From Myxococcales bacterium (GTDB taxonomy: Bacteria > Myxococcota > Myxococcia > Myxococcales > JAKAPL01): DNA of 48,383 nt. Made by a program: the position numbers and the translations under genes. Shown here in pieces: positions 783-38,100 of this stretch; the stretch's first letter is position 1, and the number at the start of each line of letters is the position of its first letter. Location: positions 1 through 48,383 of the forward strand of contig JAJXUD010000031.1 in the NCBI GenBank assembly GCA_021783235.1. Reading direction: 5' to 3'. The notes under the pieces were generated by a model, which saw only the letters and a list, made by a program, of their open reading frames with translations, searched no databases and was not told where the DNA came from.

Positions 783-1667
783 TCAGCTCCCGCTCTCCTC
801 GGCGGGCGGCGCGGCGACCTTCGGCGCCGCGTGGTGCCCCTTCCCCTTCTTCTCGAAGCTGAGCGGCCCCGTCAGGTGGAAGGGCACCAGCGTGAGCCCC
901 ACGTCGATCGTCCCGTCCAGGGTAAAGGTGAGCCCGCCTGCGTCCGCGAGCTTCGTCAGCTCGGGCCCGCCGCTGTCCTTTCCCATCCGGGCGTCGATCT
1001 CGTACTCGGCCGTCTGCGACGCCGGCACGCGGTCGCCCGTGCTCGCGACGCCCTCGGAGACGAGCCGACCGCCCAGCGTCGCGTGGTAGGTGACGGACTT
1101 CACGTGCAGGACGAAGCCGTTCTGGTTCTCGACGCCGAGGAAGATCGCGAGCCCGAGCTCGCCGCCGTCGTAGCGGGCCAGCTCGGCGTCGTCGATCTTG
1201 GCGAGGGGCAGCCGCGGCGCGCGCAGCTCGCCCGCCCGGCCGAACGGCACGTCGCGGATGGCGCCGCCCTCGTCGATCTGCAGGGCGCCCTTCATGAGCA
1301 CCGGCACCGGCCGATCGGCGCGGGCCGCCCAGGCCCGCAGGGATGCCTCGTCGTGAATGGGCTCGCTCGTCGCGGGAATGTCGAGCTCGATCGATCCGTT
1401 GGGCGGGATCGCCTGCCCGAGCGTCGGGTGGCTCGACCCCGACAGGACGCCATCGAGCCAGACCTCGACGTCGGCCGCCTGCAAGCTCCAGGGGGCGGCC
1501 GTCGGGTTCGAGATTCGCAACTTCGTCGCGAGATCGAAGCGGGTGAGCGTCTGGTCGGTCACGGTGAGCGCCAGGGCCTCGACCGGATCGTTCGGGCCGC
1601 CGCCGGGCTTGGGCGCGGCCGAGGCGCAGCCGGTGGCGAGCGCGAGGGAGACGAAGATTCGCTTCAT
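783..1667 (-). CDS. LEA14-like (WHy domain) lipoprotein
   Basis: The 294-residue protein starts with a lipoprotein signal peptide: Met-Lys-Arg, a hydrophobic stretch and the lipobox LATGC with Cys14 as likely lipidation site. The body is beta-rich and contains the pattern TKLRISNPTAAPWSLQ. That recurs as alternating strands around residues 35-150 and resembles late-embryogenesis-abundant group 2 (LEA14/WHy) domains, which bacteria use in envelope or stress proteins. A second, similar half may follow (LGLAIFLGVENQNGFVLHVK), suggesting two WHy-like units. The start lies 8 bp after the stop of another lipoprotein gene on the same strand, so the two are probably co-transcribed. The LEA2 assignment is from pattern recognition; the ligand is unknown. 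Confidence 0.6.
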   Translation of the reverse strand: MKRIFVSLALATGCASAAPKPGGGPNDPVEALALTVTDQTLTRFDLATKLRISNPTAAPWSLQAADVEVWLDGVLSGSSHPTLGQAIPPNGSIELDIPATSEPIHDEASLRAWAARADRPVPVLMKGALQIDEGGAIRDVPFGRAGELRAPRLPLAKIDDAELARYDGGELGLAIFLGVENQNGFVLHVKSVTYHATLGGRLVSEGVASTGDRVPASQTAEYEIDARMGKDSGGPELTKLADAGGLTFTLDGTIDVGLTLVPFHLTGPLSFEKKGKGHHAAPKVAAPPAEESGS

Positions 1668-1675
1668 CGGTGACC

Positions 1676-2347
1676 TCAGTTCGCGGCGCAGGGAGCGGCT
1701 GGGCCCGTGGGCTTCTCGTCCACGAGCAGAAAGTCGACGTAGCTGCCCTGATCGTCGGGCAGGTAGAGGTCGACGAAGCCGGCGTCCGGCGAGAGCCAGC
1801 GCCGGTCGTTCACGGCCTTCGAGGGAGCGTTGCCGACGACGTTGAGCTCATCGGCGAAGAAGCTCCCGGCCGGCGTGGCGAGGGTCCCCGCCTGGATCAC
1901 GTCGACCTCGAAGCTCTCGGTCCCCGAGCCGCCGTCGGCCCCGGAGACGACATCCGAGTAGCTGCTCGACGAAGAGAGCGATGGCGCGGTGCTGGAGAGC
2001 GGCGCCGCGAGGTAGAGGAGCGGCGTCGCGAAGCCTCGGCTCGTCAGCGCGACCCCGGCGATGAAGTCCTGCCGTTCGAGGAGGACGAGGCCGCCGTCGA
2101 AGGAGAGGTGGTCGACGCGCTCTTCCTGCCCGTGGTGCGAGAGGTGGAGCGCGACGCCGCCCGGCTCCGATGCCGTCACGAGCCCCACCGTCGCCGGCCC
2201 CCCGTCGCCCTCGGCGTACTCGAAGCAGCGGCCGGGCGCGAGGCCGAAGTAGGCCTGCGCCGCGACGGGAGGCGCGAGGCCGTGGCCCGGGCCCACGGCT
2301 CCGCCGCAGGCCGAGAGGAGCGCAAGGGCGAGGAGGATCGGTCTCAC
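1676..2347 (-). CDS. Hypothetical lipoprotein
   Basis: The open frame extends far upstream, but the real start is most likely GTG at 2347. From there the protein opens with V-R-P-I-L-L-A-L-A-L-L-S-A-C, a short signal peptide with lipobox LSAC (Cys14), giving 223 residues. The rest is a beta-rich, Ser/Gly-containing globular domain (for example FGLAPGRCFEYAEGDGG and SYVDFLLVDEKP) that I do not recognise. It is the upstream gene of a two-gene lipoprotein unit with the LEA14-like protein (8 bp gap). A divergent metallopeptidase gene begins 39 bp away, so the promoters of both lie in a very short interval. Confidence 0.6.
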   Translation of the reverse strand: MRPILLALALLSACGGAVGPGHGLAPPVAAQAYFGLAPGRCFEYAEGDGGPATVGLVTASEPGGVALHLSHHGQEERVDHLSFDGGLVLLERQDFIAGVALTSRGFATPLLYLAAPLSSTAPSLSSSSSYSDVVSGADGGSGTESFEVDVIQAGTLATPAGSFFADELNVVGNAPSKAVNDRRWLSPDAGFVDLYLPDDQGSYVDFLLVDEKPTGPAAPCAAN

Positions 2348-2386
2348 GGCGCGACAGTCTAGCAACTTCCACGGTAGAAGAGGGAG

Positions 2387-2980
2387 ATGCGAAGGCACCT
2401 GGGACGCCCGCAGCTCGGGCCGCTGCTGCGGCGGCTCGTCCGCGACGCGGCGGCGAAGCTGCCCGAGTTCTCGCACGTGCGGGCCTCGCAGATCCTGATC
2501 GTCGCGGGTGATGCGCGGCGGGCCTCCCGCGCGACCATCCGGCCGCTCGGGGGGAAGGGGGCCGGGCGGCCCGAGGTCTACTTCCGGGGGAGGCGAATCC
2601 TCTACCTCGTGACCTTGCGCCCACAGTTCTTTCGCCGCTCCAGCCCCGCGCAGCGGGTCGAGACGATTCTCCACGAGCTCTTTCACGCGAGCGCGCGCTT
2701 CGACGGCACGCTCCACCGGGGCCGACGCCACGCCGCCCTGCCGGGGCCGAAGTTCGGCCGGCGGCTGCGGCCGCTCGTCCGCCGCTACCTCGAGGCGATG
2801 GATCCCGAGATCTTCGCGGCGCTCTCGTTCGACGGCGAGGTGCTCGTGCGGCAGTGGCTCGAGAAGCCGCCCCTGCGCGCGCGCGGTCGCGGCGCGGCGC
2901 GGCGTCGCTACGACGAGGCGCAGCTCTTCCTCGGGCCGATTGAGATGGTGACGGAGAGGAAGCAGAGGGCCGGCGGCTGA
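2387..2980 (+). CDS. Putative HExxH zinc metallopeptidase
   Basis: The protein has 197 residues and a purine-rich Shine-Dalgarno (gaagagggag) directly before ATG. The central motif TILHELFHAS is an HExxH zincin signature: two His as zinc ligands and Glu as catalytic base. A downstream segment FDGTLHRGRRHA may give a third ligand. The N-terminal half has two beta-like stretches (RASQILIVAG and RRILYLVTLRPQFF) typical of small metallopeptidase folds, such as the putative phage-type metallopeptidase group. No signal peptide is seen, so the protein is probably cytoplasmic. The C-terminus is highly basic (RARGRGAARRR). It converges on the leucyl aminopeptidase gene with 20 bp between stops. Substrate unknown. 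Confidence 0.6.
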   Translation: MRRHLGRPQLGPLLRRLVRDAAAKLPEFSHVRASQILIVAGDARRASRATIRPLGGKGAGRPEVYFRGRRILYLVTLRPQFFRRSSPAQRVETILHELFHASARFDGTLHRGRRHAALPGPKFGRRLRPLVRRYLEAMDPEIFAALSFDGEVLVRQWLEKPPLRARGRGAARRRYDEAQLFLGPIEMVTERKQRAGG

Positions 2981-3000
2981 ACCCCGGCGAGTTCGCTGCC

Positions 3001-4530
3001 CTACGAGCCCTTCGCGATCGCCCGGCCGCGGACCCACTCGACGAGCGTGCGCACGCCCATGCCGGTCCCGCCCTTCGGCAGGTAGCCGCGCTCGCGGGCG
3101 AGGAACGAGGGCCCGGCGATGTCGAGGTGGAGCCACGGGGTCTCGCCCACGAACTCCGAGAGGAAGTGGGCCGCGGCGATGGCGCCGCCCGGCCGCTCGC
3201 CGCTGTTGCGCAGATCGGCCACGTCGCTCTTCAGCGTCTCCTTCACCCACTCGGTCATCGGCAGCCGCCAGACGTCCTCGCCTGCCGCCCGCGCCGCCGC
3301 GAGGATCTCCTCCGCGAGCGCGTCGTTTGGGCTGAAGGCCCCGGCGGTCCAGCGACCGAGGGCGACGATGCAGGCGCCGGTGAGGGTGGCGAGGTCGACG
3401 AGCGCGGCCGGCTTCGTCTCCGCGGCGTAGGCGAGAACGTCGCCGAGCACGAGCCGCCCCTCGGCGTCGGTGTTCGTGATCTCGACCGTCTTGCCGCGGC
3501 GGGAGACCAGCACGTCGCCGAGCTTGTAGGCCCGCCCGCCGGGCATGTTCTCGCAGGCGCCGAGGAAGGCGTGGACCGGGAAGGGAGGCCGCAGGTGGGC
3601 GATCACCCGCATGGCGCCGAGCGCGGCGGCCGCGCCCGCCATGTCGCTCTTCATGTCCATCATGTTCTCGCTCGACTTGAGCGACAGCCCGCCCGAGTCG
3701 AAGGTGATCGCCTTACCGACGATGGCGAGCGGCCTCTCGCGGGCGGCGGCGCCGCGCGGCTCCCACGAGACGCGCACGAGCCGCGGCTCCTCGGCGCTGC
3801 CCTGCGCGACGCCGAGGAACATCCCCATCCGCAGCCGCCGGATCGCCGTGGGGCCGAGAAGCTCGGCGCGCAGCCCGTGCGCGCGGGCCATCCGCTGGGC
3901 CTCGTCCGCGAGGCGGCGGGGGGTCAGCTGGCCGGCCGGCTCGTTGACGAGGTCGCGCGCCCAGGCGACGGCCTCGGCCAACCGCTCGGCGAGGGCGATG
4001 GCCTCGCCGAGCGGCTCGTGCTTCGGGGAGCCGGCGCCGAGGATCAGGGTCGTGGGGCCGCTAGGCCGCTTCGGCTTCTCGGATCGCCAGCGGTCGAAGC
4101 GGTAGGCGCCGAGCAGCGCCCCCTCGGCGGCGGCGCGCGCCTCCAGCGGTTCGTCCGCCGCGCCAGGCAAGGGAAGCGCGAGCCGCTTCGCCGAAGCGCG
4201 GCCGGCGGCCTTGACCGCGGCGGCGGCGGCGTGGCGGAGCCCTTCTGTCTGGTAGCGCTCGCGCTTGCCGAGCCCGAGGAGGACGAGCCGTCCGAAGGGA
4301 AGTCGTCCGCCCGTGTGGAGGGTCAGCGTCGCCTCGGCGCCGCCGCGGAACTGCTCGTCGGCGATGGCGCGCGACAGATCGCCCCCGAGCGCCCGGTCCA
4401 GCTCGGCGAGCGGATCGCTGGCCCGCTTCGCACCCTTCGGGGCCGCGGGGAGCTCGCCCTCGAAGACCGGCAGCGCGAGGAGGTCGGCCTTCGTCTCGGC
4501 CGGCCGCGAGTGAGAGATCTCGATCTTCAT
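3001..4530 (-). CDS. pepA: Leucyl aminopeptidase (M17 family)
   Basis: Cytosolic aminopeptidase that removes N-terminal residues from peptides using two divalent metals. The M17 signature NTDAEGRL is present near residue 350, preceded by the metal and substrate segments VGKAITFDSGG and MKSDMAGAAAAL, so the catalytic Lys, Asp and Glu residues appear intact. The open frame extends further upstream, but ATG at 4530 starts the typical short N-terminal domain (MKIEISHS) and has a GGAGGAAGGG ribosome site upstream. This gives 509 residues, normal for the family. The next gene is divergent, with 70 bp between starts. E. coli PepA also binds DNA; nothing here tests that role. Confidence 0.93.
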   Translation of the reverse strand: MKIEISHSRPAETKADLLALPVFEGELPAAPKGAKRASDPLAELDRALGGDLSRAIADEQFRGGAEATLTLHTGGRLPFGRLVLLGLGKRERYQTEGLRHAAAAAVKAAGRASAKRLALPLPGAADEPLEARAAAEGALLGAYRFDRWRSEKPKRPSGPTTLILGAGSPKHEPLGEAIALAERLAEAVAWARDLVNEPAGQLTPRRLADEAQRMARAHGLRAELLGPTAIRRLRMGMFLGVAQGSAEEPRLVRVSWEPRGAAARERPLAIVGKAITFDSGGLSLKSSENMMDMKSDMAGAAAALGAMRVIAHLRPPFPVHAFLGACENMPGGRAYKLGDVLVSRRGKTVEITNTDAEGRLVLGDVLAYAAETKPAALVDLATLTGACIVALGRWTAGAFSPNDALAEEILAAARAAGEDVWRLPMTEWVKETLKSDVADLRNSGERPGGAIAAAHFLSEFVGETPWLHLDIAGPSFLARERGYLPKGGTGMGVRTLVEWVRGRAIAKGS

Positions 4531-4600
4531 GACGTGCGCCCTTCCTCCCCCGCTTTGGAGCGGGGAGCCTACCAGGCCGCGTGCTATGCTGCCACGCGTC

Positions 4601-5558: not shown

Positions 5559-8500
5559 CTACGGCCCGGTCACCGTGAACGGGAGCTGGGCCGACTGGAG
5601 CGTCGCGCCGTTCCAGACCGAGATCTGGTAGCTGCCGGGCGCGACGCCGGCCAGATTCTCGCTCACCACGATCTGCGTCGTGCTCTCGCTCACGTAGGGC
5701 GGCGGCAGGGCCTCGCTGCCGTTCATGCCGGCGACGTGGACGACGCTCGAACCGAGGAAGTACTGGCCGGTCAGGGTCACGTTCAAGGTGGTCCCGGTCG
5801 CGGCGCTCGTGGGCGAGATGCTCGAGAGGACGGGGGTGCCGGGCTCGACCGTGAAGATCGCGGCGTTGGAGCTGCCGCCGCCCGGGTTCTGGATCGTGAT
5901 CTCGTAGCTGTCGACGGTCATCGTCGCGGGGTCGACGGGGCTGCTCGTGGTGGCGGAGGCGCCGCCGCCCGCGACGGTGAGGCTCCAGGTCGCGGTCTTG
6001 GCGCTCTGCAGGCCGACGAGGCTCACGGTGGCGCCGGTCGCGAAGCCGGAGCCGGTGAGCGTGACGGTCTGCGGCGCCGCGCTCTGGGCGAGCTGCGCGG
6101 GGTTCACCGTGCCGAGTGTGAGGGCGGTGGACGTCACGGTGAACGGGAAGGCGCCCGAGGAGAGGCCGCCGCTGTTGTCGACGACGAGCTGGTAGCTGCC
6201 CGCGGGGGTCGAGGCCAGCGGCAACGCGGCCGTGAGGGCGCTCGCGTCGACGTAGGTCGTCGAGAGCGCGACGTCGCCCGTGCCGCCCGACCGCTGGAAA
6301 TGGGCGGTGGACGATGGGTCGAAGTTCTGGCCGGAGATGGAGATCGTCACCGTCGTCCCGGTGGCCGCCTGCGCCGGGCTCACCTGCCCGATCGACGGTG
6401 TCGTCGAGACGACCGTGAACGGCTGCGGGCCGCTCGTCAGGCCGCCCGCGTTCTGCACCGTCAGCTGGTAGCTGCCCGGAGCGACGTTCGTCAGGTCGAG
6501 CGAGGCGTAGAGCTCGCTCGCCGAGACGAGCGTCGTCGGCACGGCGGCCGGCGTCGCGCCGCTGGCGCCGAACATCACCTGCGAGCTGCCGTCGAAGCCC
6601 GCGCCGGCGAGATCGAGCGAGGGGTGGCCGTTCGATGGGGCGCTCGTCGGCGAGACGCTCGTGAGGGTCGGCGTCGCCGAGGTCACCGTGAAGCCGAGCG
6701 TGTTCGACTTCGGCGTGCTCGCGCCGGGGCTGAGGAGGTAGAGCGTGTAGCCGCCGGGGGAGATCTGCGTCAGGTCCCAGACGGCCGTCGCCGCGGTCGG
6801 GCTCTGCAGGGTCAGCGGCACGCTGCTGTCGGGGAGGTTACCGCCGACGGCGTGGAGCTGCGTGTCCGCCGCGAGGTTCTGGCCCGCGATGGCGAGCGAG
6901 ACCTTCGCGCCCGCCGGAGCGCTCGATGGGTTGACGCTCGAGAAGACAGGCGAGCCCGGCACGACGACGTCCAGCGGGAGACCGTTCGAGAGCAGCTTGC
7001 CAGGGTCGACCACCGCGACGGTGACGGTCCCCACGGGCGCGGCGCCGAGGTTCACGGTGGCGGTCAGCGTGCTCCCGGAGAGCGTCGCGGGGACGAGCGT
7101 CGGCGAGAGGCTGTCCCCCGTCAAGAGAAGCTCTGCGCCGCTCTGGAAGCGCTCGCCGGTCAGCGTGAGCTGCGCCTGGCTGCCCGCTTCCGCCGCCTGT
7201 GGCGAGATGGAGTCGAGGTGCGGCGTCACGGCCGTGGCGCCGCCGCAGGCGCCGAGCACACAGCTCTCGCCCGTCCCGCACGACTTGCCGCAGGCGCCGC
7301 AGTTCGCGGGGTCGCTCGCGAGGTTCACGCAGCTGCCGTTGCAGCGCGCGCAGCCGCTGCCGCCGCTCGCTCCGCTCGTGCCGCCGCTGCTCGAGAGGCC
7401 GCCGTCGGGGACGACGAGGCCGCCCGTGGTGCCGCCGCTGCCGCTGCCGCCCGCAGTGCCGCTCGTGCCGCCGGTCTGGCCAACCGTGTGGCCGCCGCAG
7501 GAGAGCGCGAGCGTGAGAAGGGCGAGCAGCGAGCCCCTCCTCCAGGCGAAGCGAGGGGCAGGAAGGGTGGGGTGGGGCCTCGAGACGGCCGCCCCGCGCC
7601 GGCGGCGCGCGGCGAGGAGCAGCCCCGCGCCGAGGACGAAGAGCCACGGCAAGTTGCCGTCGCCGCCGTTCGTGCCGCAGCCGCAGCCGCTCTTCGCGCT
7701 CGTCGCCCCGCCCGTGCCGCCGCTGCCGTTCCCGCCCCCGCCCGACGACGCCCCGGCCGTGCCGCCGCTCGAGGATGTGCCGGTCGTGCCGGCTGAGCCG
7801 CCGCCAAAGCCGGACGAGCCGCTGCCAGAGCCAGACGCGCCGCCGCCAAAGCCGGACGAGCCGCTGCCAGAGCCAGACGCGCCGCCGCCAGAGCCGGACG
7901 AGCCGCCGCTGGCGAGGAGGCCGCCGTCTCGCGCGATGGCGATGCACTGGCCGCCCTGGCACGTCATCACCCCCGGGCAGACGACGCCGTTGCACGGGTC
8001 GTCGACGCAGGCGCCGCCCTGGCAAACCTGGCTCGGCGCGCAACCGACGCCCGCGCAGGGATCGGTCGCGCAGCTGCCGCCCTGGCAGACCTCACCCGAA
8101 GGACAGCCGCCGCACGGGGTCGGGCCGCAGAAGCCGTTCACGTCGCAGCTCTGCCCGCTCGGGCAGCTGACGAAGCCGCAGGCCTGCACGCAGTAGCCGC
8201 CGCGGCAGAAGGTCCCGTCGGCGCAGCTGACGCCCGCGCAGGGATCGGGCGCGCAGCTCCCGTTCTGGCAGATGCCCGCATCGCAGCCGGTCGCGTAGCA
8301 GCCGCCCGCGACGCACTGGCCGTCGCTGCAGTAGGCGCCGCTGCCGCACTTCACGCCGGCGCAGGGATCGATGCAGCCACCGGTCTGGCAGGTCTGGCCG
8401 GGCGGGCAGATGCCGGCGTCGCCACAGGCGGCGGCCTGGCAGCTCCCGGCACTGCAGGCGTAGCCGCCGGGGCAGTTCGACAGCTCGCCGCCGCAGCTCG

Positions 8501-10958
8501 CGGGGACGCAGTTGCCGTTCACGCAGGCCTCGGTCACGGGGCAGGTGGCGCCCTGGTCGATCTTGCCCGTGCAGCTGTCGTCCTTGCCGTCGCAGCGCTG
8601 CACGCCCGGCAGCACCTCGCCGAGGCAGGCGCCCCAGGCGCCCGCCGAGCTGCACGTCTGCGTGCCGCCATGGCAGATGCCGACCCCTTGGGTCCCCGCG
8701 GGGCCGGTGTAGCAGGGCTGCGTCGCCCCAGGCGTGCAGTCGAGGCAGAGGTCGGGCTTGCCGTCGCAGTCGTGGTCGAGTCCGTCGCACTGGCCAGTCT
8801 GCGGCAGGATCTCGCCCGCGCAGGCGCCGAAGCCGCCGTCCGCGCCGCAGGTTTGACTGCCCGCCTGACAGGTGCCGACGCCGGCGGTCCCGGTGGGGCC
8901 GTCGTAGCAGGGGCGGGTCTGGCCCGCCGTACAGCCGAGGCACTGGTCGGGCTTGCCGTCGCAGTCGTGATCCTGCCCGTCGCAGAGGCCATACTGCGGC
9001 GTCACCTCGCCCGTGCAGACGCCGTAGGCGCCGTTCGTGCAGGTGGCCGTGCCGCCGACGCAGGGACCGATCCCCTCGGTGCCGGCCGGGCCGCTGTAGC
9101 AGGCCTCGCTGAGCGGCGCCGGGCTGCCCGGGGTCGCGTTGTCGACGTAGCCGTCGCAGTTGTCGTCGACGCCGTTGCAGACCTCGGTCGTCGGTCCGAC
9201 CGAGCCCTGGCAGGCGCCCCACTTGCCCGAGGTGCAGAACTGTTGGCCCGGGTGGCAGCCGCAGACGAAGCCGGCCGTGCCGGCCTTCCCCTGGCAGTTC
9301 TGCGTGCCGGCGGGGCCCGAGTAGCAGCTCTGGGGCGGCATGTCGTCGACGAGGCCGTTGCAGTCGTTGTCGAGCCCGTCGCAGATCTCGGGCGAGGGCT
9401 GGACGTTCTCGACGCAGGTGAGGCTCCCGTTCTGGCACTGGTAGGTCCCCGCGGCGCAGACGCCCGGCAGCCCGGTGCTGCAGGTCGCGGGCGAGGGGAC
9501 GGTGCACTTGGCCGCGAGCGTGAAGAGGGTGTTCAAGACCATCCGCTCGCCGGCGACGTTCTGGGTCCAGGTGATGCCGTTGCTCGGGTCGTTATAATTC
9601 GTGTAGCTGTGGCCGCCCTGGTAGGCGACGGTTCCCGAGGTGGCGCTCGGAGTGACTACCGAGAAGACCTCGCTGCTCGAATTGTCGGTGATCAGCTTCT
9701 CGACGCCGCTTCGGAAGCTGCCCGTATAGTCGCCGATGTAGCCCGTCTGCGGCACGAACGGGAAGTCGCCGATCTGGAGGAACGAGGCCGCGAGTGAGGA
9801 GAAGACCAGCGGCGTGGGACCTTGATAGCCGGTGCTGACGCCGCTCGTCGTCTGGAATTGAGTCGACGGAGAAACGCTGTAGTCCGTGAAATATCCGGTC
9901 GAACTCTCGAGCGAGCCGATCCCGGCGCACTCCGCGAACATGTTGTTTCCGGAGGCGACGTATTGGGCGAGGACATTGGCGAGATTCGTCAGCTCGCTAC
10001 CCGACAGCGGGTTACAGCAGGCACCACCGCAAGCGCAGCTCGGGTTGTCGTGGCACGCTACGCCGTCCGTGCCGTCGAGCTCCCAATGGGGCATCCAGAG
10101 CAACGGGAAGTTCTTCACGTTGCTCGCGGAAAGCTGGCCGTTTGCGAGGTCGAAGTCAGTGTCGTAGAGGGCCGTATAGAGCGATGCCGATCCCAGCGCT
10201 GCGTCGGCGAGGTACTGCGTCAGGATCGGCGCGGTGTCGAAGCAATCCCCGCCAGGCATCGCCATGATGCCGACCTTGGGCGGAGCCCCCTCGAGCGTCT
10301 TCGCGACGTTCACGGTGTAGGGCGTGCTCGGGTGGAGGACGTGAAGCTGGATCGTGCTCGCGGTGAACTGGTTGAACGGCGCGCCCGAGTTGAGCAGGCT
10401 GTTGACCTGGCTGAACTGCGAGCCGTCGATGACGAAGGGGCCGCCGCGGTAGCAGAGGCCAGCCCCCTCGCGGCACTGCGAGGTGTTCGCCGTGCCGCCG
10501 TTCATCATCGACAGGCTGGCGCCGGAGTGGGCCGCGCTGGTCGCGTTCGTCTGGCCGAAGTCGAAGAGGTTCGCCCCGTAGCCCGTGCCGAAGGAGGAAG
10601 ACGGGACGTAGAAGTCCTCGTCGGTGACCGCGCCCTTCTTCGGGTTGATTCCCCAGTAGACCGTGATGCCGTTCTGCATCAGGTAGTAGACGAGGCCGTA
10701 GGCGTAGAGCGCTCCCTTCGTGTACCGGCTCGAGCACGAGGAGGCGCCGTCGAGCGGGACTGAACCCGGCTCCTGGTCGGCGTTCGCGCCGCTGCCCTGA
10801 TATGGCTGCCAGCACTCGTCCATCGGGATGACGATCGAATCGTCGCCGAACTGGCGGGGGCCCGTCACCGGCCCCTGGCACGTCGGGGCGAGGAGTGGGA
10901 TCGCGAGGAGCCCGGCCGCGAGGGGGGCGAGCGGAAGGGCGAGTCGGCGCAGGCGCAT
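5559..10958 (-). CDS. Fused ORF: MopE-like MYXO-CTERM protein + IPT/TIG-repeat lipoprotein
   Basis: One uninterrupted 1799-codon frame that looks like two proteins. Part 1 (residues 1-1120) has a signal peptide. A domain around residues 225-440 resembles a class I amidotransferase-like fold (VGIMAMPGGDC; Cys344 in FAECAGIG). Five MopE-type metal-binding motifs follow (CDGLDNDCNG, CNGVDDNCDG, CDGQDHDCDG, CDGLDHDCDG, CDGKDDSCTG), then a Cys-rich EGF/dickkopf-like array, a Gly/Ser linker with 14-residue repeats, and a MYXO-CTERM tail: GCGCG, a hydrophobic helix and RRRR at about 1089-1120. Part 2 begins at once with a lipoprotein signal (lipobox ALSC, Cys1154), a short Gly-rich and Cys-rich stretch, and six IPT/TIG Ig-like repeats starting near SPQAAEAGS, NPSSAPAGA, SPTSAPSNG, SPAQAATGT, NPAQLAQSA and SPTSAATGT. 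No stop or ATG/GTG/TTG separates the parts. A ggaggacctcccg site precedes ATG 10958. Likely cell-surface proteins. Confidence 0.8.
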   Translation of the reverse strand: MRLRRLALPLAPLAAGLLAIPLLAPTCQGPVTGPRQFGDDSIVIPMDECWQPYQGSGANADQEPGSVPLDGASSCSSRYTKGALYAYGLVYYLMQNGITVYWGINPKKGAVTDEDFYVPSSSFGTGYGANLFDFGQTNATSAAHSGASLSMMNGGTANTSQCREGAGLCYRGGPFVIDGSQFSQVNSLLNSGAPFNQFTASTIQLHVLHPSTPYTVNVAKTLEGAPPKVGIMAMPGGDCFDTAPILTQYLADAALGSASLYTALYDTDFDLANGQLSASNVKNFPLLWMPHWELDGTDGVACHDNPSCACGGACCNPLSGSELTNLANVLAQYVASGNNMFAECAGIGSLESSTGYFTDYSVSPSTQFQTTSGVSTGYQGPTPLVFSSLAASFLQIGDFPFVPQTGYIGDYTGSFRSGVEKLITDNSSSEVFSVVTPSATSGTVAYQGGHSYTNYNDPSNGITWTQNVAGERMVLNTLFTLAAKCTVPSPATCSTGLPGVCAAGTYQCQNGSLTCVENVQPSPEICDGLDNDCNGLVDDMPPQSCYSGPAGTQNCQGKAGTAGFVCGCHPGQQFCTSGKWGACQGSVGPTTEVCNGVDDNCDGYVDNATPGSPAPLSEACYSGPAGTEGIGPCVGGTATCTNGAYGVCTGEVTPQYGLCDGQDHDCDGKPDQCLGCTAGQTRPCYDGPTGTAGVGTCQAGSQTCGADGGFGACAGEILPQTGQCDGLDHDCDGKPDLCLDCTPGATQPCYTGPAGTQGVGICHGGTQTCSSAGAWGACLGEVLPGVQRCDGKDDSCTGKIDQGATCPVTEACVNGNCVPASCGGELSNCPGGYACSAGSCQAAACGDAGICPPGQTCQTGGCIDPCAGVKCGSGAYCSDGQCVAGGCYATGCDAGICQNGSCAPDPCAGVSCADGTFCRGGYCVQACGFVSCPSGQSCDVNGFCGPTPCGGCPSGEVCQGGSCATDPCAGVGCAPSQVCQGGACVDDPCNGVVCPGVMTCQGGQCIAIARDGGLLASGGSSGSGGGASGSGSGSSGFGGGASGSGSGSSGFGGGSAGTTGTSSSGGTAGASSGGGGNGSGGTGGATSAKSGCGCGTNGGDGNLPWLFVLGAGLLLAARRRRGAAVSRPHPTLPAPRFAWRRGSLLALLTLALSCGGHTVGQTGGTSGTAGGSGSGGTTGGLVVPDGGLSSSGGTSGASGGSGCARCNGSCVNLASDPANCGACGKSCGTGESCVLGACGGATAVTPHLDSISPQAAEAGSQAQLTLTGERFQSGAELLLTGDSLSPTLVPATLSGSTLTATVNLGAAPVGTVTVAVVDPGKLLSNGLPLDVVVPGSPVFSSVNPSSAPAGAKVSLAIAGQNLAADTQLHAVGGNLPDSSVPLTLQSPTAATAVWDLTQISPGGYTLYLLSPGASTPKSNTLGFTVTSATPTLTSVSPTSAPSNGHPSLDLAGAGFDGSSQVMFGASGATPAAVPTTLVSASELYASLDLTNVAPGSYQLTVQNAGGLTSGPQPFTVVSTTPSIGQVSPAQAATGTTVTISISGQNFDPSSTAHFQRSGGTGDVALSTTYVDASALTAALPLASTPAGSYQLVVDNSGGLSSGAFPFTVTSTALTLGTVNPAQLAQSAAPQTVTLTGSGFATGATVSLVGLQSAKTATWSLTVAGGGASATTSSPVDPATMTVDSYEITIQNPGGGSSNAAIFTVEPGTPVLSSISPTSAATGTTLNVTLTGQYFLGSSVVHVAGMNGSEALPPPYVSESTTQIVVSENLAGVAPGSYQISVWNGATLQSAQLPFTVTGP
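7531..7579 (-). repeat. REP-like GC-rich palindromic element inside ORF
   Basis: On the minus strand this reads as a C-rich block (GGCCCCACCCCACCC) followed by a hairpin. The hairpin arms are GCCCCTC at 7533-7539 and GAGGGGC at 7553-7559. It lies exactly between the MYXO-CTERM Arg cluster and the second lipoprotein signal and is translated as an R-P-H-P-T-L-P-A-P linker. A related C-rich palindrome occurs at 43789-43832, so this is probably a dispersed intergenic repeat that has become part of the reading frame. It may once have been the 3' hairpin of the upstream gene. Confidence 0.45.
7590..7696 (-). other. Internal MYXO-CTERM sorting signal
   Basis: Within the large ORF, residues about 1089-1120 form the tripartite C-terminal signal typical of Myxococcota: a Cys-containing motif (SGCGCGTNGGDG), a hydrophobic helix (LFVLGAGLLLAA) and an Arg cluster (RRRRG). 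In this family the signal lies at the extreme C-terminus and is used for sorting and cleavage at the cell surface. Its position 680 residues before the stop codon is abnormal and is the main evidence that the ORF is a fusion of two genes or contains a sequence error. Confidence 0.75.
7799..7910 (-). repeat. 42-bp tandem repeat coding Gly/Ser linker
   Basis: Two full copies and part of a third of a 42-bp unit lie head to tail (the segment aaagccggac recurs at 7806 and 7848). They encode the 14-residue unit A-S-G-S-G-S-G-S-S-G-F-G-G-G in the minus-strand ORF. The in-frame length means copy-number change would alter linker length without a frameshift. The flexible linker sits just before the MYXO-CTERM tail, as expected for a spacer that lifts a surface domain off the envelope. 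Confidence 0.75.
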
Positions 10959-12473: not shown

Positions 12474-12508
12474 GGCGCCGTGCATGAATTACCGAGCCTG
12501 AATGTCAT
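12474..12508 (+). repeat. IS left inverted repeat (IRL)
   Basis: Left terminal repeat, beginning GGCGCCGTGCATGAATTACC and ending GTCAT. It aligns with the reverse complement of 13789-13822 over 34-35 bp: the first 11 bases are identical, followed by a few mismatches and one single-base gap. The first possible ATG of the transposase lies inside its inner end. Confidence 0.85.
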
Positions 12509-13785
12509 ATGGGGAAGCGATGATGATCTCCATGGGACAGCACGTGGATGATGAGGTGGTGGAGCAGATACGAAAGCGGTATCAGATGCTGAGACCGGCC
12601 CTGGATGAGCGGCAGGTTCGATTGTGGGTGGCGGCAGAGGCAGAGGCATTGGGGCACGGAGGGATGGCGGCCGTGACGCGAGCGACCGGCATTCTTCACA
12701 AGCGCATCCTGGCGGGGCGGCGGGATGTCCGATCGGGAGCGCATCTGGCGGCCAGCGAGGCGGGAGCGAAGCACCCTCGACGCATTCGTCGGCCTGGTGC
12801 CGGGCGCAAGAAACTGACCGAGAAGGACCCGACGCTGCTGAAGGATCTCGAGAGCCTGGTGGCACCCGAGACCCGCGGCGATCCGCAGTCGCCGCTACGG
12901 TGGACCTGCAAGAGCGTTCGCCGGCTGTCAGTGGAGTTGGGATCGATGGGTCACCAGGTGAGTTGGGTGAAGGTCGCGAAGCTCCTCAAGGAGTTGGGCT
13001 ACAGCCTCCAGGGCACCCGCAAGACACGGGAGGGGACGAACCATCCCGACCGCAATGCCCAGTTCGAGCACATCAACGGCCAGGCAAAGGCGTTCCAGAA
13101 GCGCGGTCAGCCGGTGATCTCGGTGGACACCAAGAAGAAGGAGTTGGTGGGCGACTTCTCCAACAAGGGGCGGGAGTGGCAGCCCTCGGGACAGCCCGAG
13201 GAGGTTCGCGTTCACGATTTCATCGACGAGAAGCTGGGGAAGGCAATTCCCTACGGCGTCTATGACGTGGGGCGAAACGAGGGATGGGTCAGTGTAGGCA
13301 TCGACCACGACACCTCGGAGTTCGCCGTAGAGACGATCAAGCAGTGGTGGCGCAGGATGGGGGCACGAGCGTATCCAGCCGCCCGGGAGCTTCTCATCAC
13401 AGCCGACGGTGGCGGCAGCAACGGCCACCGGACCAGGCTCTGGAAGCTTGCCCTCCAGGGCCTGGCTGATTCGACGGGGCTCACGATGACCGTCTGCCAC
13501 TACCCTCCCGGCACCAGCAAGTGGAACAAGATCGAGCACCGCCTGTTCTCCCACATCACCGCGAACTGGCGTGGACGGCCGCTCGAGAGCGTCGAGACCG
13601 TCGTCAATCTCATCGGCAACACCAGCACCGCGGCGGGGTTGCGAGTACGAGCCGCGAAGGACGCGCATCGCTATGGCACTGCCAAGCAAGTCAGCCAAGA
13701 TGAACTTCGCTCCATCTGCCTCGCGCGCGCACGCTTCCATGGCGACTGGAACTACACCATTTCCCCTCGCGCCGGATTCGCGTAA
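12502..13785 (+). CDS. ISAzo13-family DDE transposase
   Basis: The 427-residue transposase cuts and joins the ends of the surrounding IS. The DDE catalytic acids are recognisable: Asp209 in VISVDTKKKELVG, Asp302 in LLITADGGGSNG and Glu345 in GTSKWNKIEHRLFS; the latter two contexts are characteristic of the ISAzo13 group. The N-terminal ~100 residues are helical and likely bind the ends. The first ATG (12502) lies within the inverted repeat; ATG 12520, preceded by ggggaagcg, or ATG 12532 may be the true start. The frame is intact with no frameshift signal. Codon use is less GC3-biased than in neighbouring genes. Confidence 0.9.
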   Translation: MSYGEAMMISMGQHVDDEVVEQIRKRYQMLRPALDERQVRLWVAAEAEALGHGGMAAVTRATGILHKRILAGRRDVRSGAHLAASEAGAKHPRRIRRPGAGRKKLTEKDPTLLKDLESLVAPETRGDPQSPLRWTCKSVRRLSVELGSMGHQVSWVKVAKLLKELGYSLQGTRKTREGTNHPDRNAQFEHINGQAKAFQKRGQPVISVDTKKKELVGDFSNKGREWQPSGQPEEVRVHDFIDEKLGKAIPYGVYDVGRNEGWVSVGIDHDTSEFAVETIKQWWRRMGARAYPAARELLITADGGGSNGHRTRLWKLALQGLADSTGLTMTVCHYPPGTSKWNKIEHRLFSHITANWRGRPLESVETVVNLIGNTSTAAGLRVRAAKDAHRYGTAKQVSQDELRSICLARARFHGDWNYTISPRAGFA

Positions 13786-33128: not shown

Positions 33129-33416
33129 ATGACGCAGGCTCAGTTCTTCACCGAGGTCGCGGAGAAGGCGCAGATCAGCAAGGCTCAGGTTCGCGAGGTC
33201 TTCGCGGGCGTCGAGGAAGTCATCAGCAAGAAGCTCAAGGCCGAGGGCAAGATTCCGCTCGGTGGGCTCGGCTACGCCAAGCTGGTCGACCGCAAGGCTC
33301 GCATGGGCCGCAACCCCCAGACCGGCGAGCCCGTGAAGATCCCGGCCAAGACCGTCATCAAGCTCATGCCCTCCAAGGTCATGAAGGACACCTTCAACAA
33401 GAAGGGCAAGAAGTAG
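33129..33416 (+). CDS. HU-family DNA-binding protein
   Basis: The 95-residue basic histone-like protein has the typical helical N-terminal half (MTQAQFFTEVAEKAQISKAQ). It is followed by the beta-arm region with the conserved MGRNPQTGEPVKIPAKTVIK, in which the Pro intercalates into bent DNA, and a Lys-rich tail (KDTFNKKGKK). It should act as a dimer in nucleoid organisation. ATG 33129 has a gggaggctc ribosome site. It is a stand-alone gene with its own promoter; mobile-element debris begins just downstream. Which HU paralogue this is cannot be judged from the window. Confidence 0.94.
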   Translation: MTQAQFFTEVAEKAQISKAQVREVFAGVEEVISKKLKAEGKIPLGGLGYAKLVDRKARMGRNPQTGEPVKIPAKTVIKLMPSKVMKDTFNKKGKK

Positions 33417-33449
33417 CTCGGATCGCGCAGCCGCGCGTTCGATCGGGAT

Positions 33450-33530
33450 AGGGGGCAGAGGCGAGTAGGTAGCCTCTGCTCCCCTCCCACTCCACCGGAC
33501 GTGCGGGTCCGCATCCGGCGGTTCGGACGG
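33450..33530 (-). ncRNA. Group II intron 3'-end remnant (domain V/VI-like)
   Basis: On the minus strand the sequence after the reverse-transcriptase fragment folds into a bulged hairpin, CCGGATGCGG...CCGCACGTCCGG (33495-33518), flanked by GAACCG and GGTGGAGTGGG. This resembles bacterial group II intron domain V in shape and context. A second strong hairpin follows (GGGGAGCAGAGGC / GCCTCTGCCCCC, about 33451-33485) with TACCTACTCG in the loop, like a domain VI and intron 3' end. The 5' intron domains are not seen, so it is a truncated element. Confidence 0.5.
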
Positions 33531-33547
33531 TTGTAAGGTTGGCCGGC

Positions 33548-33958
33548 GAGCTTTGGGAAGGCCCATCTGGTCGAAGTCGCTGATGCGCAGGGCGATGTGG
33601 ATGGCGAGGTGGGAGTTGAACCTCCAGCGGCGGGGGACCGCCGCCACCTGGGCCGCGGCCTTGGGGTCCAAGCCTCGGGCCCGTAATTCGCGGAAGGTGG
33701 TCGTGCCGCGCTCCCACCCGCCGCCGGACCTCGCCTCCCTTGGCGTACCAGAAGCTGTAGCCGAGGAACTTGCGGTCCTGCGGTCGCGCGACCGCTCTTC
33801 TTCTCGTTGACGCGCAGCCGAAGTTTCGCGCACAGGCCGCGCAGCGCCTGCATCACCCGCTCTCCCGCCCGCCGTGACCGCACGTATACGTTGCAGTCGT
33901 CGGCGTAGCGGACGAACAGGCGCAGGCTCGCGAGCAGCTGCTCGAGGTCGTCAGTCAT
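33548..33958 (-). pseudogene. Decayed group II intron reverse transcriptase/maturase
   Basis: Minus-strand fragments of one RT lie in order but in different frames. First comes FVRYADDCNVYVRSRRAGER with the catalytic YADD box and KLRLRVNEKKS. After a frameshift near 33795 follows RKFLGYSFWYAKGGEVRRRV. Then, after loss of about 70 residues and another shift, comes the C-terminal end FRELRARGLDPKAAAQVAAV and ALRISDFDQMGLPK, typical of group II intron maturases. The N-terminal RT half is missing. The domain V-like hairpin sits directly downstream, as in a normal intron. The element cannot be active. Confidence 0.7.
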
Positions 33959-34222
33959 CGGAGCCGTCCTTGCCTGTGTCCACGTTGACCGGGTCGTGAT
34001 CGATCGGCAAGACGAGGTAGTCGGTGGCGATCTGCCGCAGGACCAAGCGCTCGAGGCGGTCGAGGTCGAAGAGGCCATACTGCTCGGCACGGCGGACGGC
34101 AGCGAGGAGAGGCGGGCGGGGATGGTCGCGCAGCAGTCGCAGGAGATGGCGAAGGACGAGCGTGCGGCCGCCGGCGTGGGCCAGGCCCCGTACAGCGCAC
34201 CCACCTGCCGGCTGCTCGGCTG
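33951..34222 (-). pseudogene. Transposase-like C-terminal remnant (possibly IS21 IstA-type)
   Basis: The minus-strand frame reads LAHAGGRTLVLRHLLRLLRD, then RRAEQYGLFDLDRLERLVLR and QIATDYLVLPIDHDPV, ending at a TGA at 33951-33953. The helical, Leu-rich pattern with a terminal Asp-rich tail resembles the C-terminus of IstA-like IS21 transposases. No DDE core or IstB gene is present, and the upstream sequence passes straight into the minisatellite. Its stop overlaps the first Met of the RT fragment, so the two remnants were joined by recombination. The family name is a guess. Confidence 0.35.
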
Positions 34223-34224
34223 GC

Positions 34225-34640
34225 TCTCACCTTCGAGGAACGAGCGCTCGTCTGGCTTGAACGAGCCTTCATCTTCGAGCGACGAGCCACCATCTGGCTT
34301 TGACGGGCTCTCACCTTCGAGGAACGAGCGCTCGTCTGACTTGAACGAGCCTTCATCTTCGAGCGACGGGCCCCCATCTGGCTTGGACGGGCCCTCAACT
34401 TCGAGGAACGAGCGCTCGTCTGGCTTGAACGAGCCTTCATCTTCGAGCGACGAGCCAGCATCTGGCTTTGACGGGCTCTCACCTTCGAGGAACGAGCGCT
34501 CGTCTGGCTTGAACGAGCCTTCATCTTCGAGCGACGGGCCCCCATCTAGCTTTGACGGGCTCTCATCTTCGAGGAACGAGCGCTCGTCTGGCTTGAACGA
34601 AGCGTCATCTTCGAGCGACGAGCCCTCGTTCCTCACGGGT
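34225..34640 (+). repeat. Minisatellite block 1: 21-bp unit, 84-bp higher-order repeat
   Basis: Five copies of an 84-bp repeat; ttcgaggaacgagcgctcgt recurs at 34232, 34316, 34400, 34484 and 34568, exactly 84 bp apart. Each 84-bp copy is four diverged 21-bp units with approximate plus-strand consensus TTCGAGGAACGAGCC followed by CTCATC. A 12-bp palindrome, ACGAGCGCTCGT, recurs in the first unit of every copy. The unit length is a multiple of three and several frames on both strands stay open, for example S-R-N-E-R-S-S on plus and D-E-R-S-F-L-E on minus. No credible start or domain was found, so coding is not claimed. Confidence 0.88.
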
Positions 34641-34658
34641 TGGTCCCCGTCGCTCGAC
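34611..34658. repeat. Inverted junction between the minisatellite blocks
   Basis: TCGAGCGACG (34611-34620) and CGTCGCTCGA (34649-34658) are perfect 10-bp inverted arms separated by 28 bp. They are repeat units in opposite orientation and mark the point where the 21-bp unit changes strand. This is what a past inversion, or a hairpin-mediated fold-back duplication, would leave. Confidence 0.7.
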
Positions 34659-34860
34659 GTCGGGCGGCCGTTCCTCGAAGACGAGCCTTCGTTCCTCGAC
34701 GACGAGGGCCCGTTCCGGCTCGATCGGGCGTCGTTCCTCGCAGTCGACCCTTCATTCCTCGTCGCCGAACCACCGTTCCTCGAAGTCGGGCCTTCATGTC
34801 CCGAAGTCGGGGGCTCGTTCCTCTTGGACGGGGCTTCGTCCCTCGAAGTCTCCGAACCGC
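34628..34860 (-). repeat. Minisatellite block 2: 21-bp unit in opposite orientation
   Basis: The same unit read on the minus strand has consensus TCGAGGAACGAAGGCTCGTC. The plus-strand core GTTCCTC or a close variant stands in strict 21-bp register at 34628, 34670, 34691, 34712, 34733, 34754, 34775, 34796, 34817 and 34838. Units are more diverged than in block 1 and lack the 84-bp higher-order pattern. On the minus strand the block could encode S-R-N-E-G-S-S heptads. Confidence 0.85.
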
Positions 34861-34861
34861 C

Positions 34862-34880
34862 GACGCCAGATCCTGGCGTC
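34862..34880. repeat. Perfect hairpin at the end of the minisatellite
   Basis: GACGCCAG-atc-CTGGCGTC is an 8-bp perfect stem with a 3-base loop immediately beyond the last 21-bp unit and about 230 bp upstream of the next gene. There is no T-tract. It may be a boundary structure of the array or an unrelated regulatory hairpin. Confidence 0.55.
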
Positions 34881-35111
34881 GGGCGTCGGGTGGGGATGTC
34901 GCGAAGGTGTCGTTGGAGCCCGAGCCACCTCGATGACCGATCGAGCGCGTCGTCGTGGCCCCACCTTCCGAGATCGATGTGGGCATCGGTAGGCGACAGT
35001 TGTCCATTTCTTACATTGACGAAGACGATTGTCTGATGGGACCGTGAACTCCTCGCGCCATCTTGGAACCATGCGCATGTCGCGTGATTCCGCAGGAGCC
35101 GCGGAGGGGTC

Positions 35112-38100
35112 ATGGGACGACGGCTATTCGTCGTGGGAATCGGTCTGCTCGCGTCGGTCGCGCAGGCGCAGTCGGCCAGCCAGAGGGCGGGGTCGTACCT
35201 CCTCTCGAGGCAGGCGCTCGATGGCAGCTTCGGCGGCGCCACGGGCACGGATCCCGTGCTCACCACCATCGAGGCGACGTTGGCGCTCCGGCCGCTGCTC
35301 GGGGCCACGGCTCCCGAGATCGGCTCGGCGCTGGCCTTCGTCCATGCGCAGTCGCCCGCGGAGGTCGACCTGGCGGCGCGGCGGCTCCGGCTCCTCCAGG
35401 GCACGCTGCTCGCCGACCCCATCGCCGCAAGGCTCCTCGCGGCGTCGCTCCGGCCTCAGGTCGTCTTGGACGGCGCGCAGCTCGGCTCGGCGTTTACGGG
35501 CAACGGGTTTCTGTTCGGCGACCGGCAGGCCTCGGCCCTGGACACCGCGCAGACGCTGGCCTTCCTTGCGGCCGGCGCGGAGGCGCAACCCGGGCCCATC
35601 GTGCTCGGCCAGTCGGCGAACCTCTGCGGGGCCAGCTCAGCGATCTGCGCGGTCGTCACGCCGCTCCTCGAGACCTTGCTCGCGCTTCAGCACGCGGACG
35701 GCGGCTGGGGCTACGCGGACGGCGACAGCGACGCCCGGCTGACCGCGGAGATCCTGGCGGTGGTGATGCCGCTGGCCGGCCAGCTCCAGCTCAGCGGGCC
35801 GCTCTCCAACGCGGCGACCTATCTTCTCGGGCAGCAGGCCGCCGATGGGCACTTCGGCGTGGCCCAACCGTCCACCTCCGACACCGCGGTCGCGATCCTG
35901 GGGCTCGTCGGCGCCCCGGTGGCGACGAGTTCGGCGGTGCTGAAGGCGGTGGCTGAGCTCGGCGCGAGCCAGGGCTCGGACGGGAGCTGGGACGAGAGCG
36001 AGCTCGACACGGCCCTGGCGCTGCGCGCCCTCCAGGCGAGCCAGGCGAACCTCCAGGTCGCGCCTGGGACCTCGGGGCTCGACTCCTCGCTGAGTCTCTC
36101 CAATGCGCAGCCGCAGCAGGGAAGCGCGACCACGGCCACGGTGACCGTTCCCAACGCCGGCGCCATGGCCTCGAGCCCGACCAGCGTCACCTTCGTCGCG
36201 ACGTGCCCCGGGAGCGCGCCGGTGACAGTGGGAACGGCCACCGTGCCATCCGTGGCGGCTGGCGGGCAGGTCACGGTGTCGGGCACGATTGACACGTCGG
36301 AGCTCGCGGGCGACTGCCAGATCACCGCGGAGCTGGGCACGAGCAGCCCGACGGGGAGCGGGGGCCTGGCGACGACGACCTCGCTCCAGGTGGTCGCGCA
36401 GGATGACCTCGCCATCGAGCCGACGGACGTCCAGTTCAGGTCGGTGAACGCGGGGCTGGTGGAGATCTCGGCCACGGTTCACGAGAACGGCGCGGCGGTA
36501 GCGCAGCCGTTCGAGGTGGGGATCTACCAGGGAGCTCCCGACGGCGGCGGAACGCTCATCGGCTCGGCGGCGGTCGCGTCGATCGGGGCGTCGGGGTCCG
36601 CCACGGTGACCGTGGGCTGGAACCCCGCCACTGCCAACGGGCCGACGCCCATCTACGCGGTGGCCGACGTCCAGAACGTCGTCCCGGACGCCAACCGGTC
36701 GAACAACGTCGCCGAGCGCTACTACGACGCGAACCCCGGGAGCACGGATCTCGCGGTCATCAGTTCCGGCATCATCTTCGATCCGGCGATCCTCCACCCG
36801 AACACGCCCGCGAGCGTCCAGGTCGTGGTGCAGAACCTGTCGGCCGTGGACGCGTATGGCACCGAGGTCGAGCTCTGCCAGATCAGCAGTCCCTTGTATC
36901 CCGCTTGCGTGCCAGGGGTTGGCCAGCTGGCCACATTGGACCTGGTGCCGGCCAACGGAACTGCGATTGCGAGCTTCCCTCTCCCCGGTAGTTCGATCAC
37001 CCTTCCCCCCGAGGGTCAGTACAACCAGCTCACCTTTCTGGCGGCTGTCGACCCCAATGACCTCGTCTCGGATCCATATAGGGGCAATAACCAAGCGATT
37101 GCCACCGCGAACGTGGGACTCTATGCCGCCCTCACCGCGGGTCTCTACGCCCAATGTGTCTTGTCGAGCGGAGGCCAGGTCCAAGGCACCGTCTCTCTCT
37201 CCGGATTAGTCCAGGTGGAAGGCGGGGCAGGTCCGATCGCCGTTCCCTACGCGCTTTACTACGGCGCGCCCGAAGCGGGGGGCATGAAGATCGACGAAGG
37301 GATCATGCTGCCGAGCGACAACCGATTCGTGTTCGAGGCGCCCCCTCCATCGTCCGCAAACCCGCTCTACGTTCTCGTGCTGGATCCCGAGGATACTCTC
37401 CACAACCCAACGCCCTACCTCGCGCGCGCAAGTGCGACCTGCGAAAGCTACACGGCAAAGTCGAAGGTCGTGATGTCATACGACGACATCCGCGTCTCGC
37501 CGGTCGGGCCGGCGATTGGCGAGACCAGCACGGTTACGGCGACCGTCCACAACGAGGGAGTCGTCGATTCCACAGTGACACTCATGGCGTTCATTGGCGA
37601 CCCCACTACCCCGAACGGGCAGAAGCTCGCTGAGTGGCCGCTCTCAGTCGCTGCTGGGGCGAGCGCGACGGTCTCCTTTCCTTGGACCCGAACGGGAGAA
37701 GAGACAAATCTCTACTTCGGGATCTTCGATGTCGATCCCCAGCAATCGATCGATGTGCCAAACCGCTTTTTCGCGCCAAGCCAGACCCAGTTCTACACCT
37801 ATCGAAATGCCTTTCTCGAGGCCGTTTATACCTCCGGCCGCTCCGATTCGTTCCTCTATTCGACAGGAGCCGCGCCTCAGACATCCCCGCCGACAATCGG
37901 CGATCTGCTGCGCACGGGGCAACCGGTAATCGGCTATGGCGAGGCTCGCATGGTCCTCGGCGATGGAGGGGAGTACGACCAGGAGTACGAGGGCGCGCTC
38001 ACGATTATTCAGAAGCTTCCGGATAACTCGATGCAGACCCTCTGGTCGAAGCAGATCGACGACGCCGTGGGCCAGCCCATCTTCGCGGATCTCGGATTCG

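Follow-up and report, generated by a model that had tools for sequence, protein, structure and literature searches.

A two-part surface-protein precursor predicted in Myxococcales, with an internal MYXO-CTERM tag directly followed by a lipoprotein signal

The window is the whole stretch of DNA analysed, 48,383 nucleotides of contig JAJXUD010000031.1 from a Myxococcales bacterium. Its minus strand carries a long ORF with a MYXO-CTERM tag and a lipobox in its interior. From the N-terminus on, the features are:

5559..10958, minus strand: whole ORF, putative two-part surface-protein precursor, 1799 aa; ATG start, continuous in 16/16 orthologues
10878..10958, minus strand: predicted N-terminal export signal, residues 1-27, MRLRRLALPLAPLAAGLLAIPLLAPTC; hydropathy peak, closing Cys invariant in the alignment
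9459..10877, minus strand: N-domain, approximately residues 28-500, a family without assigned fold; profile searches and alignment of relatives
7944..9458, minus strand: Cys-rich region with Cu-binding_MopE motifs (PF11617), residues ~501-1005; Pfam
7704..7919, minus strand: Gly/Ser-rich spacer ahead of the MYXO-CTERM tag; sequence
7596..7691, minus strand: internal MYXO-CTERM tag (SGCGCG, TM helix, RRRR), residues 1090-1121; TIGR03901, 34.6 bits, cut-off 20
7533..7595, minus strand: predicted cytoplasmic turn, residues 1122-1142, GAAVSRPHPTLPAPRFAWRRG, open frame without a start codon; hydropathy and codon scan
7497..7532, minus strand: second hydrophobic segment with lipobox (SLLALLTLALS-C1154), predicted internal lipoprotein signal; PS51257-like pattern and hydropathy
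7239..7379, minus strand: Cys-rich stretch, partial match to an MXAN_6577-like family; 37.1 bits, below the cut-off of 100
5562..7226, minus strand: six choice-of-anchor Z / IPT-TIG repeats, putative second surface protein; NF058597, 180.3 bits, cut-off 30, and PF01833

The single frame, the internal tag and the lipobox were confirmed as originally predicted. KSGCGCG occupies residues 1089-1095 and RRRR residues 1118-1121, and ALSC carries Cys1154. A codon scan between tag and lipobox found neither a stop nor an in-frame ATG, GTG or TTG. GC3 is 0.80-1.00 throughout the ORF, as expected of a single coding frame. The IPT/TIG repeats predicted for the C-half were recovered as six CoaZ_rpt_PGGG (NF058597) stretches, the repeat that defines choice-of-anchor Z repeat proteins, overlapping five stretches found by Pfam.

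Further ORFs lie in the window. One (35112-43733, plus strand) encodes a 2873-aa secreted protein that combines CARDB and Ig-like repeats with a weak cyclase-like N-part and has no internal MYXO-CTERM match. An ISAzo13-type transposase (12502-13785, plus strand; PF07592, 471.8 bits) is located just past a divergent ABC1 kinase neighbour. A 716-aa ORF (33272-35422, minus strand) matches reverse transcriptase weakly and below threshold (PF00078, 24.3 bits).

The tag has the invariant Cys, TM helix and Arg cluster of the MYXO-CTERM signature and is the best-scoring of 21 TIGR03901 matches in its genome. It is followed by 678 residues. In each of the other 20 matches the stop comes 1-9 residues after the tag, so this sole internal tag is truly exceptional in the genome. 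In seven genomes searched with TIGR03901 alone, at E-value limits that differed between genomes, 59 of 62 matches lie 0-19 residues before the stop. The three internal tags of this sample (in the window, in the G015 orthologue and on G137:C105) are each directly followed by a second export signal. The genome also encodes the processing enzymes myxosortase MrtX (NF040593, 242.7 bits, cut-off 180) and LspA (TIGR00077, 100.3 bits, cut-off 73.95).

A first contig scan had detected two relatives in which the ORF is likewise continuous, 1808 and 1811 aa long. The N-domain profile was then searched in 147 and later in 195 genomes drawn from the class and phylum, together with a profile of the joint. 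Sixteen orthologues, the window included, have contigs spanning the joint. They belong to three families of the order: f1 (G000, the window genome, G039 and G040), f3 (G013, G014, G015, G019, G022, G023, G030, G031, G032, G034, G035 and G036) and f7 (G137). The orthologues of G020, G026 and G033 were left out since their contigs end before or at the joint. All sixteen keep the halves in one frame across the joint. N-domain identity to the window protein is 58-71% within f1 and 30-38% in f3 and f7. At so low an identity synonymous sites must have reached saturation, and an accidentally open frame would not be expected to persist.

On these alignments, the continuous ORF is neither an error nor a recent accident. 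The original prediction had offered a fusion by stop loss, and the fusion stands; a recent loss of the stop is rejected because the frame is shared by orthologues of three families. The proposal that an assembly or sequencing error had deleted a stop could appeal to the draft state of the window genome (133 contigs). It is refuted by the identical frame in the relatives, among them the single-contig genomes G013, G014 and G015, and its probability is practically nil. The search for homologues with the halves as separate adjacent genes, suggested at the outset, found none in the 44 loci scanned; in these loci the C-half profile likewise detected no C-half homologue outside fused ORFs.

The joint was aligned from 12 orthologues and one unrelated protein. 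The MYXO-CTERM Cys is the sole invariant column; one Arg and the lipobox Cys come close to it. The lipobox pattern was present in 14 of 15 joints tested, compared with 14% of shuffles, and also in the sixteenth (L049), hence in 15/16 orthologues overall. About 24-39 residues separate the start of the Arg cluster from the lipobox Cys in the orthologous joints. Pooled joint codons have a coding-like GC content of 0.87, 0.73 and 0.94 at positions 1-3. In the window, a positive n-region, a hydrophobic segment and a lipobox ending in Cys form the lipoprotein signal WRRGSLLALLTLALSC, which is located inside the chain with no start codon nearby. The residue at position +2 of the lipobox is mixed among the orthologues (G, S, T, Q, K) and so does not point to one compartment; in M. 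xanthus, Lys at +2 has been linked with inner-membrane retention (PMC3222651).

For the N-domain itself, Pfam gave no match and the solved structures no relative; AlphaFold, run on the N-domain with three sequences only, gave a pLDDT of 31.6. In f2 and f6, distant N-domain relatives stand ahead of a PilY1 propeller that is weakly recognised. The C-terminal beta-propeller of PilY1 (PF05567) is absent from the window protein by Pfam. Some N-domain relatives in other families (L113, L114, L125) carry a MYXO-CTERM-like tail at their C-terminus, a hint that the N-half used to be a tagged surface protein in its own right. A role as adhesive or matrix surface proteins would suit the MopE motifs, Cys-rich modules and TIG repeats.

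Several observations concern the N-domain family more widely. Its N-terminal hydrophobic segment closes with a Cys (APTC and variants; 10878-10880 in the window) that is invariant in 15/15 aligned N-domains; the APTC Cys of the window fails the lipobox pattern at position -1. Each f1 genome has a second, longer ORF of ~2100 aa that matches the N-domain weakly (L034, 3431-9859, minus strand, on G000:C22; L035; L036), and no MYXO-CTERM match was found in these ORFs. Locus L044 of genome G009 encodes two stand-alone N-domain proteins of ~700 aa on one contig (17537-19657 and 3633-5825, both minus strand), and both terminate directly after the N-domain.

The original prediction held that both signals are terminal and should not occur inside one polypeptide. 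This is contradicted by two proteins with internal tags, MXAN_5598 of Myxococcus xanthus (PMC11980579) and HVO_0405 of Haloferax volcanii (PMC7157517), and sorting tags are stated to function inside proteins (PMC11980579). In the published model, the MYXO-CTERM helix has its N-terminus outside and its Arg tail in the cytoplasm, and the tag is cut by MrtX (PMC11980579). With this orientation, a second helix would start inside behind positive charge and end outside at the lipobox, which is the topology of Lgt and LspA substrates.

The ORF probably encodes a hairpin precursor of two surface proteins cut by MrtX and LspA (probability about 0.65). From the single frame, the two signals and the MrtX and LspA genes, we infer its topology, cleavage, lipidation and surface location. 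The N-half would be exported via the N-terminal signal until the MYXO-CTERM helix halts transfer, its N-side lying outside. The Arg-rich turn would stay in the cytoplasm and also provide the positive n-region for the helix that follows; this second helix would re-enter the membrane oriented like a lipoprotein signal peptide. An MrtX cut at the GCGC motif would leave the N-half anchored by its C-terminus. Modification and cleavage at Cys1154 by Lgt and LspA would leave the TIG-repeat half anchored by its N-terminus. One mRNA may thus yield two oppositely anchored surface proteins in a 1:1 ratio. Cleavage proper goes a step beyond the conserved signals, and we estimate its probability at about two in three. 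Several points count against the precursor: the second segment of the window is short (11 residues past WRRG), the MYXO motif of five orthologues has a single Cys, short of GCGC, and LspA is not known to accept an internal signal of this type.

Both helices may instead form a permanent inner-membrane hairpin that holds two periplasmic domains, with neither site cut. Such a topology is plausible from hydropathy and the Arg position. A hairpin left uncut is nevertheless quite unlikely: both processing Cys are kept while the remaining joint drifts, and the genome has an MrtX gene in addition to its other MYXO-CTERM proteins. Processing at a single site is unlikely too. MrtX would free the N-half and leave the C-half held by a signal-anchor that is not cut, or the other way round. 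For internal tag cleavage there is an archaeal precedent (PMC7157517); we found none for internal cleavage by LspA. The conserved lipobox and the encoded LspA argue against a single cut.

The C-half could also be made apart by internal initiation, the fusion being only apparent. The original prediction had pointed to a restart at a non-standard codon, and GGAGGAGG is indeed present in the window, with a gap of 6 bases to a CTG (Leu1144). The GGAGG-like motif is restricted to the window and one relative (L002), 13 of the 16 orthologues have no ATG, GTG or TTG at least 14 codons ahead of the lipobox Cys, and the N-half is never ended by a stop in any of the sixteen. Internal initiation is therefore very unlikely. 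The CTG restart was rejected as a candidate; it is not conserved among the orthologues.

Similar joints occur in unrelated proteins. The 2520-aa ORF L150 (G137:C105, 5345-12907, plus strand) resembles a string of three secreted proteins connected by two MYXO-CTERM/signal-peptide joints. Its order is domain 1, MYXO-CTERM, a signal ending in AHA-S, domain 2, a second MYXO-CTERM-like tag, a lipobox and Cys-rich domain 3. In L183, L188, L189, L190 and L195, the tag is followed by a signal-peptidase-I-type signal and an OmpA-type C-end; this is the architecture of MXAN_5598. Pfam detected Ig-like repeats and OmpA (PF00691) in L183. Tag and lipobox follow each other in L185-L187, with 13 MopE stretches seen in L186, and in L191 and L181. 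L192 of genome G124 (1398-4595, minus strand) encodes trypsin, a MYXO-CTERM tag, a lipobox, trypsin and a terminal tag, likely a tandem duplication kept in one frame. Some unrelated joints (e.g., L183, L184, L191) contain an internal Met as a possible translation restart. The survey favours joints with a second segment because the joint profile (A4) contains that segment; it cannot measure how often internal tags stand without one. With somewhat better than even odds, a MYXO-CTERM tag and a directly following signal peptide that share one Arg cluster represent a general Myxococcota joint for surface polyproteins. It would be reused in unrelated families and join up to three proteins at fixed ratios and with chosen anchors.

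A conserved joint that serves as exit and entry tag together would mean that a single chain can be handled by both the myxosortase and the lipoprotein pathway. A precursor of the window type would offer a direct MrtX assay through a large change in size, like that of HVO_0405 with ArtA. Annotation that treats MYXO-CTERM as terminal misdescribes such proteins.

Bacterial envelope polyproteins are rare. The cytochrome b/c1 precursor FbcH of Bradyrhizobium is cut at an internal signal peptide and yields two envelope proteins from one polypeptide. Unlike the window ORF, it has no sorting tag and no lipoprotein, and the proteins are unrelated. The C-half repeat domain of the window protein is like that of choice-of-anchor Z repeat proteins (NF058597), but would be anchored via the predicted internal lipobox inside a longer precursor. 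TraA, a MrtX substrate, shares motif, helix and Arg tail with the window tag; its tag ends the ORF, and TraB is encoded by an overlapping ORF of its own (PMC11980579). HVO_0405 is likewise a two-gene fusion with a sorting tag mid-protein, and its central archaeosortase tag is cleaved in vivo. It differs in being archaeal, ArtA-dependent and described as a strain-specific fusion, and the available text describes no second export signal (PMC7157517). The closest match is MXAN_5598, for which a two-gene fusion and processing were proposed (Guo, Haft and Wall 2025, PMC11980579). Both ORFs combine an adhesin-like N-part, an internal MYXO-CTERM tag and a second envelope domain. The second part of MXAN_5598 is an outer membrane barrel with OmpA, as in L183, whereas the window has a lipobox and TIG repeats; the main-text passages on MXAN_5598 mention no signal peptide after the tag (PMC11980579). 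An internal MYXO-CTERM tag is, on these sources, already known and rare. What appears to be new, compared with the papers available, is that the tag is paired in a conserved way with a signal peptide right behind it, together with the age of this pairing and its recurrence in unrelated families.
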